DNA from: Actinomycetota bacterium
GTDB taxonomy: Bacteria; Actinomycetota; Actinomycetes; Nanopelagicales; Nanopelagicaceae
DNA length: 35,661 bases
Direction of reading: 5' to 3'
Assembly (NCBI GenBank): GCA_009698445.1
Contig: WLQG01000010.1
Coordinates: 1 to 35,661 of the forward strand
Shown: piece after piece, positions 302 through 35,593 of the stretch
Layout of the letters: every line of letters starts with the position of its first letter
Numbering within the stretch: position 1 is the stretch's first letter
The notes under the pieces: model-generated
What the model saw: the letters and a program-made list of their open reading frames with translations, nothing else
Database searches by the model: none
Told to the model about the DNA's origin: nothing
Made by a program: the position numbers and the translations under genes

Positions 302-958
302 ATGATCGTTGCCTACTTTTGGACAATTACTCCTAGCCGTATTCCTTTTGCTCTCGTCGCTATGGGAATGGATCGTTTTGTTTTGCGTCGCTCTAGAAAT
401 GTTGGCTTCTTCAAATCACTTGGCACAGGCAAGGGCGAGACTTTCACGCCTTCTGATGCCAATACTTTGCGGTGGGGTTTGATTGCACAAGTTCACGACA
501 TTGACGCCTTTGATCAATCTTTCGTTGTGAAGCAATGGCGCAAAAACAGTGTGAGTGAATTTCGTGCTGTCCTTGAACCAATTTCATCTCACGGCCAATG
601 GGCAAAGCAGGAACCATTTGTTGCAAGCGCAAAAGACTGGACTGGACCTGTTGCTGCAATTACACGTGCGCGCATTAAGTGGCACCAGAACTTTCGCTTT
701 TGGAGCTCCGTGCCACCCGTGACAATGTCATTGAAATCAGCACCCGGCTTGATATCTGCAATTGGAATTGGTGAAGCACCTATTGGCTTACAAGGCACTT
801 TTTCCCTTTGGGAGTCTGGCGAGGCAATTAAGAATTTTGCATATAAGGGTTCAGCGCATCAGAAGGCAATTGCCGACACAGGCACCTATAAATGGTATTC
901 AGAAGAGCTCTTCGCACGCTTTGCAGTAAAAGATATTCGCGGTTCGATTAATAGTTAA
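302..958 (+). CDS. crtA: CrtA-type carotenoid oxygenase (spheroidene monooxygenase family; possible carotenoid 2-hydroxylase)
   Basis: This 218-residue protein resembles spheroidene monooxygenase CrtA along most of its length. It shows G-F-F-K-S-L-G-T-G-K-G-E-T-F-T near residue 35, W-x-L-I-A-Q near 60, the L-E-P-I-S-S-H-G-x-W block near 95, G-P-V-A-A-I-T-R-A near 118, I-G-I-G-E-A-P near 153, F-S-L-W near 167 and a W-Y-S-E-E-L-F-A-R-F end near 200. In purple bacteria CrtA oxidises C-2 of acyclic carotenoids in an O2-dependent reaction; a CrtA relative in Flavobacterium P99-3 is a carotenoid 2-hydroxylase of myxol synthesis. Here it precedes cruF, cruG and a crtD-like gene, so 2(2')-hydroxylation of an end already hydrated at C-1 is the favoured role (inference). 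No transmembrane helix is obvious. Its ATG directly follows the previous stop. Confidence 0.8.
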   Translation: MIVAYFWTITPSRIPFALVAMGMDRFVLRRSRNVGFFKSLGTGKGETFTPSDANTLRWGLIAQVHDIDAFDQSFVVKQWRKNSVSEFRAVLEPISSHGQWAKQEPFVASAKDWTGPVAAITRARIKWHQNFRFWSSVPPVTMSLKSAPGLISAIGIGEAPIGLQGTFSLWESGEAIKNFAYKGSAHQKAIADTGTYKWYSEELFARFAVKDIRGSINS

Positions 959-972
959 GTAGTCATATAGGG

Positions 973-984
973 CAGACTTACACC
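973..984 (+). promoter_or_regulatory. possible leaderless promoter -10 of cruF (CAGACT-N6-ATG)
   Basis: CAGACT at 973-978 is followed by exactly six bases and the ATG at 985. It differs from the TANNNT pattern seen at other starts in its first base only. No Shine-Dalgarno sequence precedes the ATG. This would give cruF its own promoter 26 bases after the crtA-like stop. Confidence 0.35.
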
Positions 985-1788
985 ATGTCACTACGCCACT
1001 ACACACCAAGACGGCGTCGCTATGGGCAACTTTCCCCTCAAGCTAATGGCTTGTTGATTTCTGTTTTAGGTATAGCAATTTTGCTTCAAGTTATTTATCC
1101 ATTAGTTAATGGCGAAGTTTTGCGATTACTGACTCTCAATGTTATTTACTGGGGCGCTGGTGCGATGTTGCTCCATGCATTACTGGCTTATGGTGCACGC
1201 TATGCAGCTACTTATTTTTTCTTTACTTTCTTCTTTGCGCTGATCATCGAACATATTGGACTCGCAACCCAATGGCCTTTTGGCAACTATTCATACTCTG
1301 GCAATTTAGGGTTAAAAGTTTTTGAAGTTCCACTGGTTGTGCCATTTGCATGGATCATGATGGCCCACCCTGTTTTAACCGCAGCTCGTCGCATTGCAGG
1401 TAATTGGGTATTTCTTTATGGCGGAGTTGTTCTTGCGGCTTGGGATCTATTTTTGGATCCCTTGATGGTGAGTCAAGGTAACTGGACATGGATAGTCACT
1501 GGCGCGCATGTTCCATTTCAACCGCAGATTCCTTTATCTAATACCTTCGGTTGGTTACTGAGCGGAATGTTTCTCATCGGCGTTCTCCATCTGATTACTC
1601 CACGCGAAAAGCGAAAGGGTGGGGCCACATTTCTCACTACAGATGTTCTACTTTTGTGGGTTTTATTCTCAGGAATTATCGGGAACTTATTTTTCTTTAG
1701 CCGCCCAGGGATTGCCTTCTTTGCTGGAGCAATCTTTGCAATCGTGCTTGCCCCTTATTTCTTTAACCGCTGGTTGGGACGCCCTTAG
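985..1788 (+). CDS. cruF: carotenoid 1,2-hydratase, CruF family (DUF422)
   Basis: This 267-residue, very hydrophobic protein has about seven or eight membrane helices. The central block G-N-Y-S-Y-S-G-N-L-G (near residue 104), the following P-L-V-V-P-F-A-W-I-M-M, and A-A-W-D-L-F-L-D-P near 150 are characteristic of the CruF/bisanhydrobacterioruberin-hydratase family. CruF adds water across the C-1,2 double bond of a psi end, giving a tertiary 1-OH (known from cyanobacteria, Deinococcus and haloarchaea). It therefore needs an open end of lycopene or gamma-carotene, made by crtE/I/B some 4 kb downstream. It sits between the CrtA-like gene and cruG, the glycosyltransferase that usually accompanies it. 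The start is ATG 985 after a 26-base gap; cruG begins six bases after its stop. Confidence 0.87.
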   Translation: MSLRHYTPRRRRYGQLSPQANGLLISVLGIAILLQVIYPLVNGEVLRLLTLNVIYWGAGAMLLHALLAYGARYAATYFFFTFFFALIIEHIGLATQWPFGNYSYSGNLGLKVFEVPLVVPFAWIMMAHPVLTAARRIAGNWVFLYGGVVLAAWDLFLDPLMVSQGNWTWIVTGAHVPFQPQIPLSNTFGWLLSGMFLIGVLHLITPREKRKGGATFLTTDVLLLWVLFSGIIGNLFFFSRPGIAFFAGAIFAIVLAPYFFNRWLGRP

Positions 1789-1793
1789 TTTCC

Positions 1794-2867
1794 ATGGATT
1801 CTGTACTGGCAATTCTCGCAGGGCTCATTCTTTTTATATCCCTGATTAATTTCGTTTCGATTCGCACGCCCCGAGGTTCATCTGTTATTACAGAAAAAAT
1901 ATCAGTCATCGTTCCGCTACGAAATGAGTCCGAAAACATCGTCGAACTAATCCAAACGTTGCGTAACCAAAAGCACTTATCTGATGTTGAATTCCTACTT
2001 CTAGATGATAGTTCTGAAGATGACACGCTCACTTTACTCAAGCAGAGCTGTGAAGGTTTAGAAAACTTCAGGGTTTTATCTGGTTCCCCATTACCTCAAG
2101 GTTGGATAGGTAAAACATGGGCATTGCAACAATTACTTCAAGCATCTCGTGGTCAGATCGTCGTAAGCATTGATGCCGATGTTCGACTTGAACCAGATGC
2201 AATCAGTTGCGCAGTTACTTTATTAAAGAGTTCGCAGTTGGATTTTATTTCACCGTATCCTGCTCAACAGGCTTACACATGGTCTGAAAAACTCATTCAA
2301 CCGCTCTTGCAATGGTCGTGGATGTCGACAGTCATTTTGAGAATTGCCGAGAGAAGTTCTAGTTCTTCCATGGTTGTGGCAAATGGCCAGTTCTTTGTAG
2401 TCAGAAAAGAAGCTCTTGAGCAAGTGCGCGGATATGAGTCAGCAAGTAATAAGGTTTTAGATGATGTCTTTTTGGCCAGAGCACTCGTTAAGAACGGTTC
2501 ACATGGCTGTGTTGCAAATGGTGCGGCAATTGCATCCACTCGAATGTATTCATCGTGGAGAGAGATTCAAGCTGGATATGGCAAGTCCTTACACGCTGCT
2601 TTTGGTTCAGCGTTTGGTTGCGCCGTAGCCATAATATTTATATTTCTCACTGGTATTGCTCCCTTGATTGCCGGTATCACAGGTTCAAATATCGGCTGGT
2701 ATGCCTTTGGCGCAGTTACGCTTACTCGCACGATGAGTGCAATTAAAGTAGGCAAAAATGGTTTAGATGCCTTCCTGCACCCGCTTTCATCTGCGCTTCT
2801 TATCCACTTAATCATTTATTCATGGGTGATGCGTGGTCGGGTCCAATGGAAAGGCCGCACCATATGA
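1794..2867 (+). CDS. cruG: carotenoid glycosyltransferase, GT2 family (CruG-like)
   Basis: This 357-residue protein has one N-terminal membrane helix (about 3-21), a GT-A catalytic domain and two or three C-terminal helices (about 270-345). The GT2 domain shows V-I-V-P-L-R-N-E-S-E-N near residue 39, L-L-D-D-S-S-E-D-D near 68, the metal-binding D-A-D of V-S-I-D-A-D-V-R near 128, and a late V-L-D-D-V-F-L-A-R block (about 221) fitting the catalytic base and acceptor region. A membrane GT2 next to cruF is the usual context of CruG, which adds a sugar to the 2'-OH of myxol-type carotenoids. The sugar donor cannot be read from sequence; CrtQ-type glycosyltransferases are the main alternative. The downstream desaturase starts within its stop (ATGA at 2864-2867), so the two are translationally coupled. 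Confidence 0.8.
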   Translation: MDSVLAILAGLILFISLINFVSIRTPRGSSVITEKISVIVPLRNESENIVELIQTLRNQKHLSDVEFLLLDDSSEDDTLTLLKQSCEGLENFRVLSGSPLPQGWIGKTWALQQLLQASRGQIVVSIDADVRLEPDAISCAVTLLKSSQLDFISPYPAQQAYTWSEKLIQPLLQWSWMSTVILRIAERSSSSSMVVANGQFFVVRKEALEQVRGYESASNKVLDDVFLARALVKNGSHGCVANGAAIASTRMYSSWREIQAGYGKSLHAAFGSAFGCAVAIIFIFLTGIAPLIAGITGSNIGWYAFGAVTLTRTMSAIKVGKNGLDAFLHPLSSALLIHLIIYSWVMRGRVQWKGRTI

Positions 2868-4393
2868 CATCACGCTCTCTAAAAATTGTTGTGATTGGCG
2901 CTGGCATGGGCGGCATGATGTCGGCTGCACGTTTAGCTAAGGCTGGTCACCACGTTTCATTATATGAAGCATCAGATCGTGTGGGTGGAAAACTGCACAC
3001 AGAATGGATTGGGAAAGTTGCCTTTGATACAGGGCCATCACTTTTAACTTTGCCAGCCGTTTACAAAGATTTCTTTCAACGAACTGGTAAACATCTAGGA
3101 CTGCTCTGTGAAATACAGGCAGTTGATCCATCTTTTGATTATCGATTTGCAGACGGAACCAGCGTTACGTTTGCCAATCTTTCGCGCTATAACACGCTCA
3201 ATAATCTGCGTGCTTCATATGGTGAACCAGTTGCACGCCAATGGGATCAGTTAATGCGAAGAGCAGAAAAGATGTGGGATGTTTCGCGAGAACCATTCAT
3301 TGAAAATGAACTGCGCTCACCACTTTCCTTGCTCAAACGCTTCTCCCTCATTAGAGATTTAAAGATTATTGCACCTTGGAAAACTCTGAGGGATTTTGCG
3401 ACCGAAGAACTATCAGATCAACACCTTCGCTACATCCTAGATCGCTATGCAACGTACAGTGGTTCAGATCCACGAAAAGCACCTGCAGTCCTATCAACCA
3501 TTGCATTTGTAGAAGAATCATTTGGTGCTTGGCATATCAAGGGCGGACTAGGAACCTTGGCAACACTGGTACACGAGCGTGCCGAGAAAGTGGGAGTTAC
3601 ATTTCACCTAAACTCCCCTGTTGCATCCATCAACGTAATAAGGGGTAAAGCAACGGGAATTACTTTAGAAAATGGGCACGTTATTGAATCTGATGCAGTG
3701 ATTGCTAACGCCGATGCTTCACTGATCTATAACAAGTTAATCACAGGCAAAATTCGAAAGATCAAGAAAATACGAAAGAATTTGAAGAAAGCTGACGCCT
3801 CACTTGCTGGCTTCTCTTTGCTTCTTGGAATGCGTAAAGATGAATCTGCCCCGCTCAATCACCACACAGTACTTTTTCCTAAAAATTACGATGCAGAGTT
3901 CGATGCGATTTTCACACATAAAAAGCCCGTTGCAGAACCCACTATCTATATCTGCGCTCCTAATGATGATGCCATGACAAGAGATCAATCGCTAGAGAGT
4001 TGGTTTGTACTTGTAAACGCACCTGCGCACGGTGAACATTCTTTTGACTGGAGCGATCAAGAGTTCGCGCGTACCTATGCCAATTCGATCATCGATCAGA
4101 TTGAAGCGCGAGGGATTTCAGTTCGTTCGCGCCTTGAATCGTTAACAATTCGGACACCTGCTGATCTGGAAACTGCTGTGCGCGCACCTGGCGGTTCAAT
4201 TTATGGAACATCCAGTAATGGTGCACGAGCAGCCTTTATGCGTGCCAAGAATCGCTCCCCTATCAAAGGTTTGTATTGTGTTGGTGGTTCGGCTCATCCT
4301 GGTGGCGGATTACCTTTGGTTGGTTTAAGCGCTGAAATGGTTGCTAATGCAATTGGGAACGCGCAAAACGGACAACCATTAAAAAGCCACTAA
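2864..4393 (+). CDS. crtD: carotenoid 3,4-desaturase, CrtD-like (CrtI/CrtD phytoene desaturase family)
   Basis: This FAD-dependent amine-oxidase-fold protein has 509 residues from the chosen start. The dinucleotide motif I-G-A-G-M-G-G-M-M-S-A-A-R-L begins near residue 11, with the acidic strand end at Y-E-A-S-D-R-V-G-G-K. The C-terminal FAD segment is L-Y-C-V-G-G-S-A-H-P-G-G-G-L-P-L-V, which looks more like CrtD/CrtN relatives than the P-G-V-G-V-P-M-V of the true CrtI at 6153. I chose ATG 2864 because it overlaps the cruG stop and sits right before the Rossmann strand; ATG 2822 would add 14 residues lying inside cruG. Known CrtD enzymes desaturate C-3,4 of 1-hydroxycarotenoids, fitting cruF next door; a second CrtI-like step cannot be excluded. 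Its 3' end overlaps the opposite-strand gene by 50 bases. Confidence 0.78.
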   Translation: MTSRSLKIVVIGAGMGGMMSAARLAKAGHHVSLYEASDRVGGKLHTEWIGKVAFDTGPSLLTLPAVYKDFFQRTGKHLGLLCEIQAVDPSFDYRFADGTSVTFANLSRYNTLNNLRASYGEPVARQWDQLMRRAEKMWDVSREPFIENELRSPLSLLKRFSLIRDLKIIAPWKTLRDFATEELSDQHLRYILDRYATYSGSDPRKAPAVLSTIAFVEESFGAWHIKGGLGTLATLVHERAEKVGVTFHLNSPVASINVIRGKATGITLENGHVIESDAVIANADASLIYNKLITGKIRKIKKIRKNLKKADASLAGFSLLLGMRKDESAPLNHHTVLFPKNYDAEFDAIFTHKKPVAEPTIYICAPNDDAMTRDQSLESWFVLVNAPAHGEHSFDWSDQEFARTYANSIIDQIEARGISVRSRLESLTIRTPADLETAVRAPGGSIYGTSSNGARAAFMRAKNRSPIKGLYCVGGSAHPGGGLPLVGLSAEMVANAIGNAQNGQPLKSH

Positions 4394-4964
4394 TTTGAAG
4401 CGCTAGGAAAGCAACAGAGACTGCAAAAATACCTGGCAGATTGAGTTGCCACATAATCAAAACTATAAATAAAAATGAAGCACGTATAGGTCGTTCGGCA
4501 GGTGTTACTACACCGATATCTGTAATTCCTAGTGAAACTAATTTAGCTCGTGCATATTCTTGGAAAGATGCAACGCACCACAATGTGATCGCTAACCAAG
4601 CAGGAACACCGATTACATAGAGGGCATAGAGCCATAGAGCTTCACTTATGCGATCGACGACTGAATCAAGGGTTGCGCCCCACGAACTTTGTCGCTTTTG
4701 AAATATTGCGACACTTCCATCAATACCATCACAGAAAAGTGAAAAAACTAGAAAACCAACTGCCCACCATGATGTTGCGCTCAAAGCCGTCGCAGCTGCG
4801 GCAACTAAACCTAGAAGTGTTAAAACATTTGGTGAGATACGAAGTAACGTGGCAAGAAGACCAAAGCGATAGGAAATATTGAGCCACCAAGCAACGGCGC
4901 CGGTAACGGGGGCATCGTTGTGCAACCCACTCCATGTATCAGTGAATTCTTGCTTGCTGAGCAT
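4344..4964 (-). CDS. CDP-alcohol phosphatidyltransferase family membrane protein
   Basis: This 206-residue protein has about five or six membrane helices. The family signature D-x2-D-G-x2-A-R-x8-G-x3-D-x3-D is present around residues 79-104 with all four Asp and both Gly in register, but the Arg after Ala is Ile (S-V-A-I-F-Q). These enzymes transfer a phospho-alcohol group from a CDP-linked donor (for example CDP-DAG) to an alcohol such as glycerol phosphate or inositol phosphate. The changed Arg means activity and substrate are uncertain. It is the only minus-strand gene between the two halves of the carotenoid cluster; a role there is not implied by sequence. The ATG at 4964 is preceded by a purine-rich A-G-G-G-A-A-G stretch as ribosome-binding site. 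The 3' end overlaps crtD by 50 bases. Confidence 0.72.
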   Translation of the reverse strand: MLSKQEFTDTWSGLHNDAPVTGAVAWWLNISYRFGLLATLLRISPNVLTLLGLVAAAATALSATSWWAVGFLVFSLFCDGIDGSVAIFQKRQSSWGATLDSVVDRISEALWLYALYVIGVPAWLAITLWCVASFQEYARAKLVSLGITDIGVVTPAERPIRASFLFIVLIMWQLNLPGIFAVSVAFLALQISGFLMVVRFARSQLH

Positions 4965-5075
4965 TTTCTCACTTCCCTATTATTTTCCAGCCTTTAAGTA
5001 TTTATAGTATAGAAGTGTAGGCTCGGTAGACCAACAAGAATGGCAAAGGGAACTAGGTGAGGGTACCTTTACGCT
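4965..5075. promoter_or_regulatory. divergent promoter region, CDP-alcohol transferase / crtE
   Basis: This 111-base gap separates two divergently read genes. On the plus strand TACCTT (5064-5069) lies six bases before the crtE GTG, a leaderless-type -10. On the minus strand an AT-rich TATACT-like hexamer near 5004-5009 could serve the phosphatidyltransferase, which would then have a short leader ending in A-G-G-G-A-A-G. No clear operator repeat was seen. Confidence 0.45.
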
Positions 5076-6152
5076 GTGAGTTCAACGACTAGGTCAGAGT
5101 TACAAGAAGTACGCGATGGCGTAGAGATTGAGCTAACTCAATTTATGCGTGATCAAAGTTCATATTTACACTCAATCTCACCTGAGCTGAAGCCCGTTTC
5201 TTCGGCGCTTTCCTCATTTTTATTAGATAGCGGAAAACGCCTACGTCCTCTCTTTGCTTATGCGGGAATCAAAAGTGCAGGTGGATCTTTAACACCAGCT
5301 TTGACTAAAGCAATCTCTTGCCTAGAACTTCTTCAAGCGTGCGCACTTATTCATGATGACTTAATGGATGGTTCTGACACACGTCGGGGTAAGCCATCAA
5401 TTCACCGCCACTTTGAATCAATCCATGTGCAAGATGAGTTAGAAGGTTTTGCCCCTGCATATGGTTTAGCTTCAGCAGTTTTACTGGGTGATTTAGCTCT
5501 TGTCTGGTCAAACCAACTGCTTAATACTTCTGGTATTTCTGTCGATGAAATTCGCCGCGTGATGCCTATCTTTGACGAAATGCGCGTTGAGTTAATGGCT
5601 GGACAGTTTTTAGATATTCATGAACAGACACAAAAGAACACTGATCTTGATCGGTCAATTGAGATTGCGCGTTACAAGTCAGGTAAATACACGATTGAAC
5701 GTCCACTGCATATGGGCGCAGTCTTGGTCGGGGGCGCATCACCGACTTTGCTCGCAGCTCTCTCTGACTACGGATTACCCTTAGGCGAGGCGTTCCAATT
5801 CCGCGATGACTTGTTAGGCGTATTTGGCGATCCCTCTGTTACGGGAAAACCTGCCGGAGATGACTTGCGCGAAGGTAAGCGCACAGCTCTTATCGCAATG
5901 GCCGATGCAAAATGCACCGATGCCATGAAGGCTGAGAGTCGCAAGTATTTTGGTAAAAACGATATTGATGAAAAGGGTGTAGCAATACTGCAAGAGATGA
6001 TTGTTTCAACAGGCGCTAAAGCACAACTTGAAACTATGATTGATGAGTTAACCTCTAGAGCACTTACAGCGATTGAAAATTCAGCAATTGATGATGCAGG
6101 ACGTAATGTGCTCAATGAACTAGCCCTGATTGCAACGAAGCGGAGTATGTAA
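5076..6152 (+). CDS. crtE: geranylgeranyl diphosphate synthase (trans-polyprenyl synthase)
   Basis: This 358-residue all-helical prenyl synthase builds GGPP from IPP and allylic diphosphates, the C20 precursor for phytoene. The first Asp-rich motif is D-D-L-M-D at residues 94-98, followed by the usual G-x-x-T-R-R-G; the second is F-R-D-D-L-L-G near 242-248. The G-K-R-L-R-P block near residue 55 binds diphosphate. The start is GTG 5076, with a TACCTT hexamer six bases upstream and no ribosome-binding site. crtI follows immediately (TAA then ATG), so crtE-crtI-crtB form one operon. The long-chain quinone synthase is a related family, but tight linkage with crtI and crtB makes the carotenoid role most likely. 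Confidence 0.92.
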   Translation: MSSTTRSELQEVRDGVEIELTQFMRDQSSYLHSISPELKPVSSALSSFLLDSGKRLRPLFAYAGIKSAGGSLTPALTKAISCLELLQACALIHDDLMDGSDTRRGKPSIHRHFESIHVQDELEGFAPAYGLASAVLLGDLALVWSNQLLNTSGISVDEIRRVMPIFDEMRVELMAGQFLDIHEQTQKNTDLDRSIEIARYKSGKYTIERPLHMGAVLVGGASPTLLAALSDYGLPLGEAFQFRDDLLGVFGDPSVTGKPAGDDLREGKRTALIAMADAKCTDAMKAESRKYFGKNDIDEKGVAILQEMIVSTGAKAQLETMIDELTSRALTAIENSAIDDAGRNVLNELALIATKRSM

Positions 6153-7637
6153 ATGGTTGCCAGAGTAAAAGGCCCCACCGATCACGTCGTAATCGTTGGT
6201 GCAGGCCTTGCTGGATTAAGTGCTGCATTGCGTCTTGCAGGAGCTGGCCGAAAAGTAACTGTCTTAGAGCGTGAAAGCGTTCCGGGCGGGCGCAATGGTC
6301 TACTCAACAAAGATGGCTACGCCTTTGATACTGGGCCTTCAGTTTTAACAATGCCCTCACTGATCAATGACGCATTTAACTGTGTGGGCGAAGATATGAA
6401 AGATTGGCTGGAATTAACACCACTCACACCGCTCTATCGCGCTTTCTATGCCGATGGCTCACAAATAGACGTTCATGCAAATACCGATGAGATGGAAGCA
6501 GAGATTGCTAAGCACATCAGTAGCTCTGAGGCTGCTGGTTATCGCAGATACGTAGATTTTGTAACTAAGTTATATAAGTATGAAATGAATGACTTTATCG
6601 ATAGAAATATCGATAGTCCCCTGAACTTACTCACACCTAACCTTGCCCGCTTAATCGCCCTCGGTGGTTTCCGCAGACTTTCACCAAAAGTAAATCAGTT
6701 CATGAAAGATCCCCGCCTACAAAAGGTTTATTCATTCCAAGCGATGTATGCAGGTGTAAGTCCACAGCAAGCTCTGGCCATCTATGCAGTCATTGCATAT
6801 ATGGACTCGGTCAATGGTGTTTTCTTCCCTAAAGGTGGAATGCACGCGGTACCTCGCGCATTAGCTGCGGCAGCAGAAAAGCATGGCGTTGTCTTTAAGT
6901 ACAACACAACTGTCACAAATGTTGAAGTAAACAATGGTCGCGCAAAAGCAGTCATTACCGAATCTGGTGAGCGCTATGAGTGTGACGCGGTTATTTTAAA
7001 TCCTGACCTACCGGTTGCTTACCGTGAATTACTTGGAAAAACGCCAGCAACAATTAAGCGTCTGAAGTATTCACCATCGTGCGTAACTTTACTAATTGGT
7101 TCTAGTAAGAAATATGACTTTGCAGCCCATCACAACATTCACTTTGGTCACTCTTGGGATGGCGTCTTCGATGAGCTCATTAAGAAGAAGCAGTTAATGA
7201 GTGATCCCAGCATCTTGGTAACAATTCCAACACATGATGACCCAGATTTGGCTCCACCAGGAAAACACTCGTATTACGTACTTTTCCCAACACCTAACTT
7301 AGACAGTGATATCGATTGGAAAAAACAAGCTGGTCCTTATCGCGATCAGATGATTAAAACTATTGAAGAACGTGGATACACAGGCTTTGGTGATTCCATC
7401 GAAACCGAAGTGATGACTACTCCCCTCGATTGGAAAAATCAGGGAATGGAGATGGGCGCACCTTTTGCCAGCGCACATACGTTCTTCCAAACCGGCCCAT
7501 TTAGACCACGCAACATGGCTCAAAGAATCGAGAACGTAGTCTTTGCTGGTTCTGGCACCCAACCTGGAGTTGGTGTTCCAATGGTTTTAATTTCAGGTCG
7601 TTTAGCTGCTGAGCGAATTGTGGGACCAGTTAAGTAA
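6153..7637 (+). CDS. crtI: phytoene desaturase
   Basis: This 494-residue FAD enzyme converts phytoene to lycopene by successive desaturations at the membrane. The N-terminal motif V-G-A-G-L-A-G-L-S-A-A-L-R-L starts near residue 15, with E-R-E-S-V-P-G-G-R-N after the second strand. The C-terminal segment F-A-G-S-G-T-Q-P-G-V-G-V-P-M-V-L-I-S-G is the classic CrtI signature, and D-T-G-P-S-V-L-T-M-P near residue 57 is also typical. It is the true CrtI of the window, in contrast to the CrtD-like paralogue at 2864. Its ATG immediately follows the crtE stop and its stop immediately precedes the crtB ATG, so translation is probably coupled. Number of desaturation steps is not readable, but CrtYc/CrtYd imply lycopene. 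Confidence 0.94.
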   Translation: MVARVKGPTDHVVIVGAGLAGLSAALRLAGAGRKVTVLERESVPGGRNGLLNKDGYAFDTGPSVLTMPSLINDAFNCVGEDMKDWLELTPLTPLYRAFYADGSQIDVHANTDEMEAEIAKHISSSEAAGYRRYVDFVTKLYKYEMNDFIDRNIDSPLNLLTPNLARLIALGGFRRLSPKVNQFMKDPRLQKVYSFQAMYAGVSPQQALAIYAVIAYMDSVNGVFFPKGGMHAVPRALAAAAEKHGVVFKYNTTVTNVEVNNGRAKAVITESGERYECDAVILNPDLPVAYRELLGKTPATIKRLKYSPSCVTLLIGSSKKYDFAAHHNIHFGHSWDGVFDELIKKKQLMSDPSILVTIPTHDDPDLAPPGKHSYYVLFPTPNLDSDIDWKKQAGPYRDQMIKTIEERGYTGFGDSIETEVMTTPLDWKNQGMEMGAPFASAHTFFQTGPFRPRNMAQRIENVVFAGSGTQPGVGVPMVLISGRLAAERIVGPVK

Positions 7638-8510
7638 ATGAGTGATTTAGATGCATCGTATGCAGAGTGCAAAAGATTAAATTCTCTGCATGGTAAAACT
7701 TATTACTTAGCAACGCTTCTTCTTCCAAAAGCGAAACGTAAGTATGTTCATGCACTTTATGGTTTTGCCCGTTACGCCGATGAAATCGTTGATGATCTTG
7801 AATCCACTTTAACAGTGCAAGAAAAGTCAGATGCTTTAGGTATCTGGGGCAAGAAGATTCTCCACGACCTAAGTACCGGTAAAAGTGATGATGCAATAGG
7901 TCGGGCGCTTATTGACACAGTCAAAACATTCTCAATACCTCACGAACACTTTGAAGCTTTTTTGCATTCAATGACAATGGATTTAACGGTGCAGGAATAC
8001 CAAACCTATGAGGATTTATTGGAATATGTCTATGGATCAGCTGCAGTTATTGGCCTCGAGATGGTGCCAGTGTTGGGTGTCCTTGAAGAAGGTGCATACG
8101 AATGTGCCAAGAAACTAGGCATCGCCTTTCAATTAGCTAACTTCATTCGCGATGTCGGTGAAGATTTAGATCGAGGCCGTATTTATCTGCCTATTACTGA
8201 GTTAGCTGAACATGGTGTTACACGCGAAATGCTTGAAGAGCGCGTCCTAACTCCTGAAATCATTAGCGCACTAAAGTTTCAAATTGCCCGCGTGCGCCGA
8301 CTCCAAGCTGAAGCAACGCCTGGAATCCACATGCTTGCCACCTCTAGTCGACCATGTATTGAAGCTGCCAGTGAACTGTATTGCGGAATTGTTGATGAAG
8401 TTGAAAAGATTGGTTACGACATTTTCAATAAGCGAGCTAAAACTTCCACCAGCCGCAGATTGCGTGTATTTATTACTGCTTACGTGAAGCTTCTAGTCGT
8501 ATCCAATTAA
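7638..8510 (+). CDS. crtB: phytoene synthase
   Basis: This 290-residue squalene/phytoene-synthase-fold protein condenses two GGPP to phytoene, the first committed carotenoid step. The two Mg2+-binding motifs are D-E-I-V-D-D at residues 48-53 and D-V-G-E-D at 172-176, the latter inside N-F-I-R-D-V-G-E-D-L-D-R-G-R-I-Y-L-P. Y-A-x-x-R-Y-A-D-E-I-V and the A-F-Q-L-A-N-F-I-R-D block are typical of CrtB rather than squalene synthase. It is the last gene of crtE-crtI-crtB, starting right after the crtI TAA. Its last 38 bases overlap the 3' end of crtYd on the other strand, leaving no room for an intrinsic terminator. Confidence 0.94.
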   Translation: MSDLDASYAECKRLNSLHGKTYYLATLLLPKAKRKYVHALYGFARYADEIVDDLESTLTVQEKSDALGIWGKKILHDLSTGKSDDAIGRALIDTVKTFSIPHEHFEAFLHSMTMDLTVQEYQTYEDLLEYVYGSAAVIGLEMVPVLGVLEEGAYECAKKLGIAFQLANFIRDVGEDLDRGRIYLPITELAEHGVTREMLEERVLTPEIISALKFQIARVRRLQAEATPGIHMLATSSRPCIEAASELYCGIVDEVEKIGYDIFNKRAKTSTSRRLRVFITAYVKLLVVSN

Positions 8511-8772
8511 TTAATACCCCAAGCACCAAAGCAAATCCAAAGAATAAATCTTCGATTGGCGCAGATGCTATTCGAAGCCCAATGATACTTTCTGGGCGAT
8601 ACATAACAATGTTGCGAGAAGTCAGCCACCAGTTAGTCAGCAGCTGAAAGCCAAGAATAATTGCATAAGAAGTCCAAAACACTTTACGCTTAAGAAGTTG
8701 GGTATTGAATAAATATAAATCAAAAGAAATCGCAAACAACACGGCAAAGATTGCTATCTGGGTATAAGTCAT
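8473..8772 (-). CDS. crtYd: lycopene cyclase subunit, CrtYd type
   Basis: This 99-residue protein has three membrane helices and the conserved P-I-E-D-L-F-F-G-F element near residue 72, equivalent to the P-x-E-E/D site of heterodimeric and fungal/haloarchaeal lycopene cyclase domains. With CrtYc it forms the cyclase that closes psi ends of lycopene. I chose ATG 8772, two bases after the crtYc stop; an upstream in-frame TTG at 8787 would overlap crtYc without support. Beta ring formation (CrtYc/d) is favoured over epsilon (CrtYe/f of corynebacteria) because no C50 elongase CrtEb is nearby, but sequence alone does not settle it. The 3' end overlaps crtB by 38 bases. Confidence 0.85.
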   Translation of the reverse strand: MTYTQIAIFAVLFAISFDLYLFNTQLLKRKVFWTSYAIILGFQLLTNWWLTSRNIVMYRPESIIGLRIASAPIEDLFFGFALVLGVLINWIRLEASRKQ

Positions 8773-8774
8773 CT

Positions 8775-9095
8775 CTATACCTGCCAATCTTTCTTAACCT
8801 TACGAACTGCTTCAATTGTCATAAATGCAGCTATGGGTACAACTAGGAAAAACAAATACTCTTCTAGGGGAATACACCAAGGTCCATAAATCCCAATGAT
8901 TTGATCTTTATTAAAGAACCAATGTCCATGGGATATTGCATACTTATCCCAAGCGATAAAGAGAAAAGCCACCGGCACAATGGATTTCACCATTCGTTTG
9001 AATTGTTTGAGCACTCCGACCTTGAGGAAAACCTCAAGCCAAAAAGATCCGATAACCGTGAAAATGATCATGGCCATGTATCCATACTTTTGCAC
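8775..9095 (-). CDS. crtYc: lycopene cyclase subunit, CrtYc type
   Basis: This 106-residue, three-helix membrane protein carries W-D-x-x-A-x-x-x-G-H-W-x-F near residue 49 and P-L-E-E-Y-L-F-F near 76, both hallmarks of the first half of heterodimeric lycopene cyclases. It partners the next gene, crtYd, which starts two bases after its TAG. The two are separate proteins, not fused as in fungi and some Bacteroidetes. The start is GTG 9095, six bases after a TAGCGT hexamer; the internal ATG (residue 7) is less likely because it would cut into the first helix. Partial cyclisation would give gamma-carotene, the substrate CruF needs; full cyclisation gives beta-carotene, a possible retinal precursor. 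Confidence 0.87.
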   Translation of the reverse strand: MQKYGYMAMIIFTVIGSFWLEVFLKVGVLKQFKRMVKSIVPVAFLFIAWDKYAISHGHWFFNKDQIIGIYGPWCIPLEEYLFFLVVPIAAFMTIEAVRKVKKDWQV

Positions 9096-34060: not shown

Positions 34061-35593
34061 ATGGCAACTGCGAAGACTCCCGCGAAAACTGCGGCAAAAG
34101 GTAAAAAACCGGTCGGTCCAAAACCTGGTGAATACCCAGGCAAGATCGTAGACATCGATGTATCTAAAGAAGTTTCTGAATCATTTCTTGAATATGCATA
34201 CTCTGTAATTTATTCACGTGCGCTACCTGATGCGCGTGATGGTCTCAAGCCAGTTCACCGTCGCATCTTGCATCAGATGGCAGATATGGGTCTTCGCCCA
34301 GAACGTGGACATGTAAAGAGCGCGCGAGTTGTTGGTGAAGTAATGGGTAAATTGCACCCTCACGGCGATGGTGCAATTTATGACGCACTTGTTCGTATGG
34401 CTCAATCATTTTCAATGCGCTTGCCACTTATCGATGGCCACGGAAACTTTGGTTCACTCGATGCCGGTCCTGCAGCGATGCGTTATACCGAAGCACGTCT
34501 TGCTAGCGCTGCAATGGCGATGGTGGCAGAAGCCGATGAAGACACAGTTGATTTTGGTCCTAACTACGACGGACAACTCTCAGAACCTTTAGTTCTTCCT
34601 GCGGCATATCCCAACCTCTTGGTAAATGGTGGATCAGGTATCGCAGTAGGTATGGCCACCAACATGGCTCCTCACAACTTGGGCGAAGTAATCGCTGCGA
34701 CAAAGTTTTTAATTGAAAACCCCAGCGCAACTATTAAGCAGCTCATGAAATTTGTTCCAGGTCCAGATTTTCCAACCGGTGGTGAAATCGTTGGCCTCGA
34801 AGGTGTGCGCGAGGCATATGCAACGGGCAAGGGTTCTTTTAAAGTTCGCGCCAGTGTTGAAATTGAAAAAGTTACCTCTCGCAAAATGGGAATTGTTATC
34901 AAGGAACTTCCCTTCACGATCGGACCTGAAAAGGTGGTTGAGCGTATTGCTGCCCTTGTTAAATCCAAGAAAATTACCGGCATCAGCGACATTATCGACC
35001 TCACGGATGGACAGACCGGCACCAACGTTGTGATCGAAATTAAAAACGGTTTCGAGCCTGAAGCGGTTCTAGAACAGCTGTATTCATTGACCCCGATGGA
35101 AGATGCTTTCTCAATTAACGCTGTGGCCCTGGTTAAAGGCAAGCCACAGACGTTGGGATTAAAAGAACTTCTTAAAGTGTTTATTGAGCACCGCATTGAA
35201 GTTGTGCGCCGTCGCAGTGAATACCGTAAGGCTAAAGCTGAAGGACGTTTAACTCTGGTTGATGGTTTGCTCAAAGCAATTATCGATATCGATAAGGTCA
35301 TCAAAATTATTCGTGCCAGTGATGATGCAGCAACTGCCAAGGAAAAGTTGATGAAGGACTTTAAATTAAACGATGAGCAAACAACATACATCTTGGATAT
35401 GCCACTTCGTCGTTTAACTAAGATGAGCAAACTTGAACTTGAAACTGAGCAAAAGGAACTTAAAGCCACCATTGCTGAGTTAACTAAACTGCTCAAGAGC
35501 GAAGATGCGATCAAAGCACAGGTTTCAGATGAATTAACTGCCGTTGGTAAGTCATTTGCTACCCCACGAAAAACTCGAATTGGCGCTGCCTAA
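34061..35593 (+). CDS. parC: topoisomerase IV / gyrase A subunit lacking the C-terminal domain
   Basis: This 510-residue type IIA topoisomerase A subunit has an N-terminal Lys/Ala/Pro tail (about 1-25), the winged-helix breakage-reunion domain with S-R-A-L-P-D-A-R-D-G-L-K-P-V-H-R-R near 51, H-P-H-G-D-G-A-I-Y-D near 105 and catalytic Tyr142 in R-Y-T-E, then the tower and coiled-coil region to about residue 490. Where ParC or GyrA normally continue into a beta-pinwheel DNA-wrapping domain (total about 750-850 residues), this protein stops with a TAA, and stops follow in the other frames before the next gene. No GyrA-box (Q-R-R-G-G-x-G) is present. The quinolone-region Ser is Gly here. ParE is not in the window. 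Confidence 0.85.
   Translation: MATAKTPAKTAAKGKKPVGPKPGEYPGKIVDIDVSKEVSESFLEYAYSVIYSRALPDARDGLKPVHRRILHQMADMGLRPERGHVKSARVVGEVMGKLHPHGDGAIYDALVRMAQSFSMRLPLIDGHGNFGSLDAGPAAMRYTEARLASAAMAMVAEADEDTVDFGPNYDGQLSEPLVLPAAYPNLLVNGGSGIAVGMATNMAPHNLGEVIAATKFLIENPSATIKQLMKFVPGPDFPTGGEIVGLEGVREAYATGKGSFKVRASVEIEKVTSRKMGIVIKELPFTIGPEKVVERIAALVKSKKITGISDIIDLTDGQTGTNVVIEIKNGFEPEAVLEQLYSLTPMEDAFSINAVALVKGKPQTLGLKELLKVFIEHRIEVVRRRSEYRKAKAEGRLTLVDGLLKAIIDIDKVIKIIRASDDAATAKEKLMKDFKLNDEQTTYILDMPLRRLTKMSKLELETEQKELKATIAELTKLLKSEDAIKAQVSDELTAVGKSFATPRKTRIGAA

Follow-up and report, generated by a model that had tools for sequence, protein, structure and literature searches.

A conserved carotenoid gene cluster in a probable freshwater actinobacterium with a predicted glycoside of the deoxymyxol type as its product

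The myxoxanthophyll pathway of cyanobacteria uses CruF and CruG. Enzymes of Nonlabens spongiae have been combined in Escherichia coli, where CrtY with CruF gave 1'-hydroxy-gamma-carotene, the addition of CrtD gave 1'-hydroxytorulene, and the further addition of CrtA-OH and then of CrtZ gave deoxymyxol and myxol, respectively (PMC11855829). CrtA-OH hydroxylases from Flavobacterium P99-3 and from Nonlabens have been tested (PMC11855829), and the CrtA ketolase is described as derived from a CrtA-OH hydroxylase, with a heme that is five-coordinated (PMC10604819). The carotenoid pathways of freshwater actinobacteria have been predicted and are biochemically uncharacterised except for two beta-carotene cleavage dioxygenases (PMC11577799), and acI genomes with rhodopsin and crtEBIY but without blh have been reported (PMC5301498). 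Here we describe a carotenoid (crt) gene cluster in a contig of 35,661 nucleotides (WLQG01000010.1, assembly GCA_009698445.1; the whole stretch is hereafter the window) from an actinobacterium that probably lives in fresh water, and compare it with these systems.

The crt gene set at 302-9095, which a preliminary description had recognised from the letters alone, is present, with all named open reading frames (ORFs) intact and matching their families in Pfam or NCBIfam (Table 1), and the four end-tailoring genes (crtA-like, cruF-like, GT2 and crtD-like) share one strand as claimed. We think it fairly likely that the cluster encodes one complete pathway from geranylgeranyl diphosphate (GGPP) to a monocyclic polar C40 carotenoid, a glycoside of the deoxymyxol (plectaniaxanthin) type, and that this is a core pigment of the genus. 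CrtE, CrtB and CrtI would convert GGPP to lycopene, and the cyclase pair would close one end to a ring, probably a beta ring. The open end would then be hydrated at C-1' by CruF, desaturated at C-3',4' by CrtD, hydroxylated at C-2' by the CrtA-like monooxygenase and given a sugar by the family-2 glycosyltransferase (GT2). The window has a counterpart for each Nonlabens step except CrtZ. Gene content, order, conservation, phylogenetic placement and co-occurrence were obtained directly; from these we infer each reaction in this organism, the ring type, the sugar and its position, and the function.

The genes are arranged as operons would be: crtE, crtI and crtB abut directly without gaps, and spacers of 5-26 bases or overlaps join the neighbours among crtA, cruF, GT2 and crtD. 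The two cyclase genes are encoded on the minus strand, run towards crtB and overlap its end. The order crtA-cruF-GT2-crtD followed by crtE-crtI-crtB was identical in 17 of 17 further whole clusters of the genus. The proportion of synonymous differences (pS) exceeded that of nonsynonymous differences (pN) in all nine genes when the window was compared with each of four relatives, a rough measure as synonymous sites are near or at saturation. The genome that holds the window (contig C2) measures 1.34 Mb in 67 contigs, has a GC content near 45% and is an estimated 84.7% complete. Its size and GC content, together with a xanthorhodopsin-like rhodopsin, would suit a member of the freshwater acI lineage.

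Table 1. Genes of the carotenoid cluster and the gene lying within it.
Feature	Position	Strand	Profile match
crtA-like carotenoid C-2 monooxygenase, putative 2'-hydroxylase (CrtA-OH type)	302-958	+	NF045923
cruF-like carotenoid 1,2-hydratase	985-1788	+	PF04240, TIGR03460
Family-2 glycosyltransferase (GT2), CruG-like	1794-2867	+	PF00535, NF045692
crtD-like 1-hydroxycarotenoid 3,4-desaturase	2822-4393 (start probably 2864)	+	NF045637
CDP-alcohol phosphatidyltransferase, conserved neighbour, not obviously in the pathway	4344-4964	-	PF01066, E 3.2e-12
crtE, polyprenyl (GGPP) synthase	5076-6152	+	PF00348, E 2.5e-52
crtI, phytoene desaturase	6153-7637	+	TIGR02734, 536 bits (above the cut-off of 238)
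crtB, phytoene synthase	7638-8510	+	PF00494, E 2.1e-65
CrtYc/CrtYd-type lycopene cyclase subunit, cluster-linked	8473-8787	-	TIGR03462 and PF18916, above cut-off
CrtYc/CrtYd-type lycopene cyclase subunit, cluster-linked	8775-9095	-	TIGR03462, above cut-off; PF18916, 27.3 bits (cut-off 27)

Because the matches of CrtA, CruF, GT2, CrtD, CrtE and CrtB all lie under the NCBIfam equivalog cut-offs, their family membership is firm while their exact functions are given here as predictions. The CruF-like protein belongs to the CruF family of 1,2-hydratases by its match to PF04240 (E 2.5e-30; 106 bits, cut-off 25) and scored 83 bits against TIGR03460 (cut-off 154.7). For the GT2 the best model was that of CruG (NF045692, E 8.7e-40; 136.8 bits against an equivalog cut-off of 600), followed by HpnB at 111.7 bits. 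Being nearest to CruG but far under its cut-off, the enzyme is likely to glycosylate, and the 2' position proposed earlier for the sugar would rest on this distant match.

The CrtD-like protein scored 342.6 bits (E 3.1e-102) against NF045637, under the cut-off of 580 but above its 300 bits against TIGR02734; against desat_CrtD (TIGR02733), which we take to be the cyanobacterial type, it scored 68 bits. Its best match in the Protein Data Bank (PDB) was the gamma-carotene desaturase 4REP (E 2.5e-64), ahead of the phytoene dehydrogenase CrtI 4DGK (E 1.1e-41). A tree of 36 CrtD and CrtI proteins, with 8 of 80 named loci entered and unnamed rows labelled by similarity, placed it together with proteins annotated as CrtD in Roseobacter and Sulfitobacter and with one from Flavobacteriales adjoining crtA/cruF, apart from CrtI; the CrtI of the window grouped with CrtI. 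Support was 98 for 15 actinobacterial CrtD rows, 94 for the 18-row CrtD side and 78 for the label split, the latter two being under the threshold of 95. Another Flavobacteriales protein, on a long branch, was called crtD by its profile but adjoins crtB; it fell on the CrtI side and is probably the CrtI of its organism. The preliminary description had named grouping with CrtI as the outcome that would speak against it. The PDB matches and the tree reject the CrtD-like protein as a second CrtI; as in the flavobacterial myxol-type pathway, the gene groups with CrtD.

The earlier proposal of a myxol-glycoside-type product stands as regards the genes for CruF/CrtD/CrtA-type end tailoring together with a GT2, and changes at the ring. 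The FA_hydroxylase family of CrtZ (PF04116) was matched in none of ten genomes, namely that of the window (84.7% complete) and nine single-contig relatives, in a search that matched 2 of 14 as a control and did not extend to P450, CrtR or CrtW types. Thus, a deoxymyxol-type product fits better than a myxol-type one.

The CrtA-like protein matched NF045923 at 158 bits (E 2.3e-46), short of the cut-off of 300, and matched no Pfam model. It has 7107 relatives; among the 120 listed, those named by their source were called 'hypothetical protein'. In a tree into which 27 of 80 named loci were entered, it grouped with Geodermatophilus, Blastococcus and Frankia in an actinobacterial clade of 12 rows (100/100), while two purple-bacterial ketolases adjoined Flavobacteriales CrtA (93/79) in an 8-row group (100/99) away from that clade. 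Nine columns separate these ketolases from 13 rows of Bacteroidota; the window protein agrees with Bacteroidota at seven of them and with the ketolases at one, and matches neither at the remaining column. Lying both under the equivalog cut-off and outside the purple ketolase group, it does not classify as a spheroidene 2-ketolase; it may hydroxylate or ketolate, hydroxylation being the better prediction from these alignments.

Structure prediction for the CrtA-like protein gave a model with a mean confidence (pLDDT) of 92.9. No solved structure was matched by sequence at E values up to 1, and the Foldseek matches of the model were significant but superposed loosely over the full length. Those ranked highest by E value were putative monooxygenases and similar proteins (template-modelling (TM) score 0.34-0.45, root-mean-square deviation (rmsd) near 15-16), the aldoxime dehydratase OxdRE reached TM 0.60-0.63 on the query at an rmsd of 6-9, and the list, with its loose matches to ABM-type monooxygenases and heme proteins, includes HmoB with heme. 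One half of the model fits the small protein 1Y0H with an rmsd of 2.0 over 100 columns. We read the modelled fold as tandem ferredoxin-like, a fold common to monooxygenases and heme proteins, and His 186, invariant across 49 sequences, as a candidate heme ligand.

The distribution of the genes across the genus bears on the ring and on the function. Among 121 genomes, cyclase was matched in 99, CrtA in 106, rhodopsin in 98 and Blh in 62. In the near-complete subset (37 genomes with a completeness of 90% or more and a contamination of 5% or less) cyclase and CrtA were matched in all 37, rhodopsin in 33 and Blh in 21, three of the Blh matches being partial (G033, G133, G143); a draft genome can never fully prove that a gene is absent. 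The cyclase has been kept by all 16 members of this subset in which Blh was not matched, by 13 of them beside crtB (G005, G015, G036, G060, G064, G073, G090, G095, G106, G111, G123, G127, G136) and by three, G014, G069 and G079, at the blh site from which blh is gone; G014, G015 and G106 are single contigs. In G014, G069 and G079 the neighbours on the blh side (an M23 peptidase gene and two genes beyond it) match those of the blh-bearing G063 and G075, and in G014 the other flank differs. A cyclase that is retained without Blh points to a product with a ring and to a role beyond retinal supply.

Rhodopsin was not matched in four of the 37 (G060, G079, G123, G133), each of which keeps crtA-cruF-GT2-crtD, crtI, crtB and the cyclase; crtE was read in three, and in G060 it lay outside the stretches read. 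Since the pathway is kept without a rhodopsin match, an antenna cannot be its only role, and since it is kept whether or not retinal and rhodopsin are made, the main job of the pigment is probably in the membrane or in photoprotection, and it may also bind actinorhodopsin. Blh and rhodopsin were not significantly associated in the near-complete genomes (Fisher p 0.30). A remnant of blh, an ORF of 145 codons at 1888-2325, lies beside an intact cyclase pair in G133 (L140, G133:C5), which is 99% complete.

The rest of the window genome was searched as the preliminary description had suggested. A xanthorhodopsin-like actinorhodopsin (ActR) was found on another contig, and Blh gave no match in the 84.7% of the genome at hand, with no positive control there and the same profile matching 17 of 60 and 62 of 121 relatives. 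RPE65-type oxygenases, another possible source of retinal, were matched in none of ten genomes (control 2 of 14). Near relatives of the window genome include both G106, G015 and G136 without a Blh match and G008, G070 and G085 with Blh.

The cyclase step of the flavobacterial myxol-type pathway is represented here by a CrtYc/Yd-type pair and not by the CrtY family of Nonlabens. The two subunits match TIGR03462 at E 5.6e-15 (8473-8787) and 3.8e-16 (8775-9095), and their motifs, P-x-E-D in the former and P-x-E-E in the latter, are invariant across 77 aligned pairs. In the genus such pairs occupy two sites, adjoining crtB as in the window or adjoining blh, and in a tree of 77 loci the cluster-linked and blh-linked cyclases formed separate groups, with four label changes, counted over the labels cluster, blh and solo, compared with 29.2 when the labels were shuffled. 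(Of 78 loci entered, one was skipped for lacking a subunit; same-place repeats, the single-subunit L012 and L134 and later-fetched loci were left out, and long branches were flagged, L055 foremost.) Mean identity was 0.73 and 0.76 inside the types and 0.59 across them, with six strongly diverged blh-linked pairs omitted. Both types occur together in thirteen genomes of the tree set, where they are 41-64% identical. The tree puts the pairs of G014, G069, G079 and G139, the last an incomplete genome, next to the cluster type, but their similarity to the two types is much the same (0.63-0.65 and 0.68). Only three columns distinguish the clades at 90% in both, which allows no functional reading. 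When the window was compared with G106, the cyclase genes had a pN far smaller than their pS.

From this we tentatively propose that the genus has two lycopene cyclases, the one on the blh side serving beta-carotene and retinal, and the one on the crtB side, a diverged paralogue, acting as a monocyclase dedicated to an undescribed deoxymyxol-type glycoside; we hold this with clearly less confidence than the pathway itself. We found no description of such a split in the literature searched, as judged by titles and the openings of abstracts, which falls short of proving that it is new.

Two further observations concern the cyclases. Six loci (L055, L057, L060, L066, L077, L136) form a strongly diverged blh-linked lineage, with one subunit 28-32% identical to that of the window and, in L136, a likewise diverged blh (42%); this lineage was possibly acquired from outside the genus. 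In G021 a cluster-type pair (L126, G021:C83) lies at the usual blh site with no blh there, flanked by an M23 peptidase gene and by a homologue of a 702-aa neighbour gene, and the blh of G021 lies with a diverged pair (L055) on a different contig.

The preliminary description had allowed for an acyclic hydroxylated glycoside, in which both ends would be hydrated, desaturated and oxidised and the cyclase would serve retinal synthesis only. The best model for the CruF-like protein, a bisanhydrobacterioruberin hydratase, would suit this reading, as the substrate of that enzyme is acyclic, and so would Streptosporangiales clusters with crtA, crtD, GT2 and crtI but no CrtYc/Yd in the flanks read, which were 10 kb or shorter, the remainder of those genomes lying outside the search. 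Against it stand the persistence of the cyclase in the genomes without Blh, mostly beside crtB, and in those without rhodopsin, and the lack of RPE65-type matches; these comparative data favour one cyclised end and make a fully acyclic main product unlikely. The CrtA-like enzyme could also be a C-2 ketolase yielding a 2'-keto-1'-hydroxy torulene-type pigment, which the GT2 would then glycosylate at C-1'. The sole curated model that it matched is spheroidene monooxygenase, and ketolation amounts to two successive hydroxylations by the same type of enzyme (PMC10604819). This, too, we regard as improbable, given that the purple ketolases have their place next to CrtA of Flavobacteriales and outside the actinobacterial clade, and that the window protein is unlike the ketolase state at eight of the nine separating columns.

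Two-subunit cyclases of the CrtYc/Yd kind occur in C50 pathways too, crtEb is present in Luna-1 actinobacteria (PMC12422013), and the window genome has three UbiA-family proteins, so that a C50 end product deserves mention. Two of the three are heme O synthase and MenA, and the third (G000:C5:21950-22531, L255) fits no curated model well, lies on another contig and is far under the cut-off of every model matched, so that none was retained as a C50 elongase; the ten ORFs scanned in the cluster hold no UbiA-family gene, and C-2 oxidation with 3,4-desaturation should require an unextended end. A C50 product therefore seems very unlikely. The polar pigment had also been suggested to act in the membrane or as an antenna. 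ActR carries a glycine aligned with Gly156 of xanthorhodopsin, the fenestration glycine, as do all 14 rhodopsins looked at from the many more found. In Candidatus Aquiluna IMCC13023, whose genus belongs to the Luna-1 group (PMC12422013), ActR binds the native carotenoid, for which a mass of 591.49 is given (PMC8113403). This value differs from the masses predicted for the window product, namely 568.428 for an aglycone C40H56O2 and, for example, 730.481, 714.486 or 700.470 for its glycoside with a hexose, deoxyhexose or pentose. Hydroxylated xanthophylls without a keto group can serve as antennae in some rhodopsins, with energy transfer in Kin4B8 (PMC13093654). The predicted product lacks a 4-keto group and a CrtZ-type ring hydroxyl, and the pathway persists in the four genomes without a rhodopsin match. 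Light harvesting for ActR is therefore possible but not the sole role, and we doubt that it is the main one.

Several points weigh against the deoxymyxol-type glycoside that we favour. All four tailoring proteins score under equivalog cut-offs; the 13 Bacteroidota CrtA rows hold no tested hydroxylase and were compared with only two ketolases, and the window CrtA departs from the Bacteroidota state at two of the nine columns. The cyclase adjoins crtB in only 5 of 11 cluster loci of one genus set, which, with the Streptosporangiales stretches devoid of CrtYc/Yd, indicates that the tailoring module can occur with no cyclase beside it. As close relatives (G008, G070, G085) have Blh, some of the constraint on the cyclase may go back to an ancestor with blh, and the 15% that the window genome lacks could include Blh. 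C-2 ketolation, a C50 product, or hydroxylation or ketolation of the ring by an enzyme from a different family may also apply.

Beyond the genus, at least 593 CrtA loci were confirmed in named genomes. The best 80, ranked by likeness to Deinococcus CrtA, comprise 47 from Bacteroidota, 30 from Actinomycetota, two from Chloroflexota and one from Gemmatimonadota. Near CrtA in the 30 actinobacterial loci lie crtD in at least 21, GT2 in at least 18 and a cyclase subunit in at least two, these counts being lower bounds as ORFs overlap in GC-rich loci; L220 holds the whole set including one cyclase subunit. Six Streptosporangiales loci (L106, L154, L158, L170, L184, L190) have the arrangement cruF-crtD-(GT2)-crtA with crtI on the opposite strand and no CrtYc/Yd in the stretch read, and these organisms may make an acyclic counterpart.

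Within the cluster, the CDP-alcohol phosphatidyltransferase gene divides the tailoring half from the crtE-crtI-crtB half. It is convergent and overlapping with crtD and keeps this position in all 17 whole clusters read; two further genomes have a methylenetetrahydrofolate reductase (MTHFR) gene between the halves as well. Elsewhere in the window, an ORF at 34061-35593 (510 aa) resembles a type II topoisomerase A subunit and seems short for its family.

The cluster is a real, conserved pathway of a known kind, now with a better-defined predicted product that makes the question of the freshwater actinobacterial pigment testable. The pigment is probably a general membrane pigment. The cyclase split, taken with what became of blh and rhodopsin, helps to tell apart three roles that tend to be merged, namely retinal supply, antenna and membrane pigment, and offers a possible reason why genomes with rhodopsin and crtEBIY but without blh (PMC5301498) keep the cyclase. 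If the two-cyclase proposal is true and acI is the genus concerned, one of the most abundant groups of freshwater bacteria would have this as a core pigment, which outlives the loss of both retinal synthesis and rhodopsin.

A complex-carotenoid branch in acI actinobacteria was reportedly described by Dwulit-Smith et al. 2018 (AEM 01678-18), and the window pathway is very probably this branch in the same kind of organism; the cyclase split and the retention of the pathway without Blh or rhodopsin are new here, though that paper may already contain them. Like the cyanobacterial myxoxanthophyll pathway, the window has a hydratase and a GT2 glycosyltransferase for the open end, while its GT2 reaches 136.8 bits where the CruG cut-off is 600 and its CrtD fits NF045637 far better than TIGR02733. 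With the purple-bacterial spheroidenone pathway (CrtA ketolase, CrtC, CrtD) it shares CrtA and CrtD homologues, and it differs in having CruF for CrtC, a cyclase and a glycosyltransferase, and a CrtA that misses the ketolase cut-off. Compared with the Nonlabens myxol module (PMC11855829), it has a two-subunit CrtYc/Yd-type cyclase in place of CrtY, crtE inside the cluster, an added GT2 and no CrtZ found; like that module, it would direct CruF, CrtD and CrtA-type enzymes to the one open end of a monocyclic C40 carotenoid, a scheme that for Nonlabens has been proven in E. coli.

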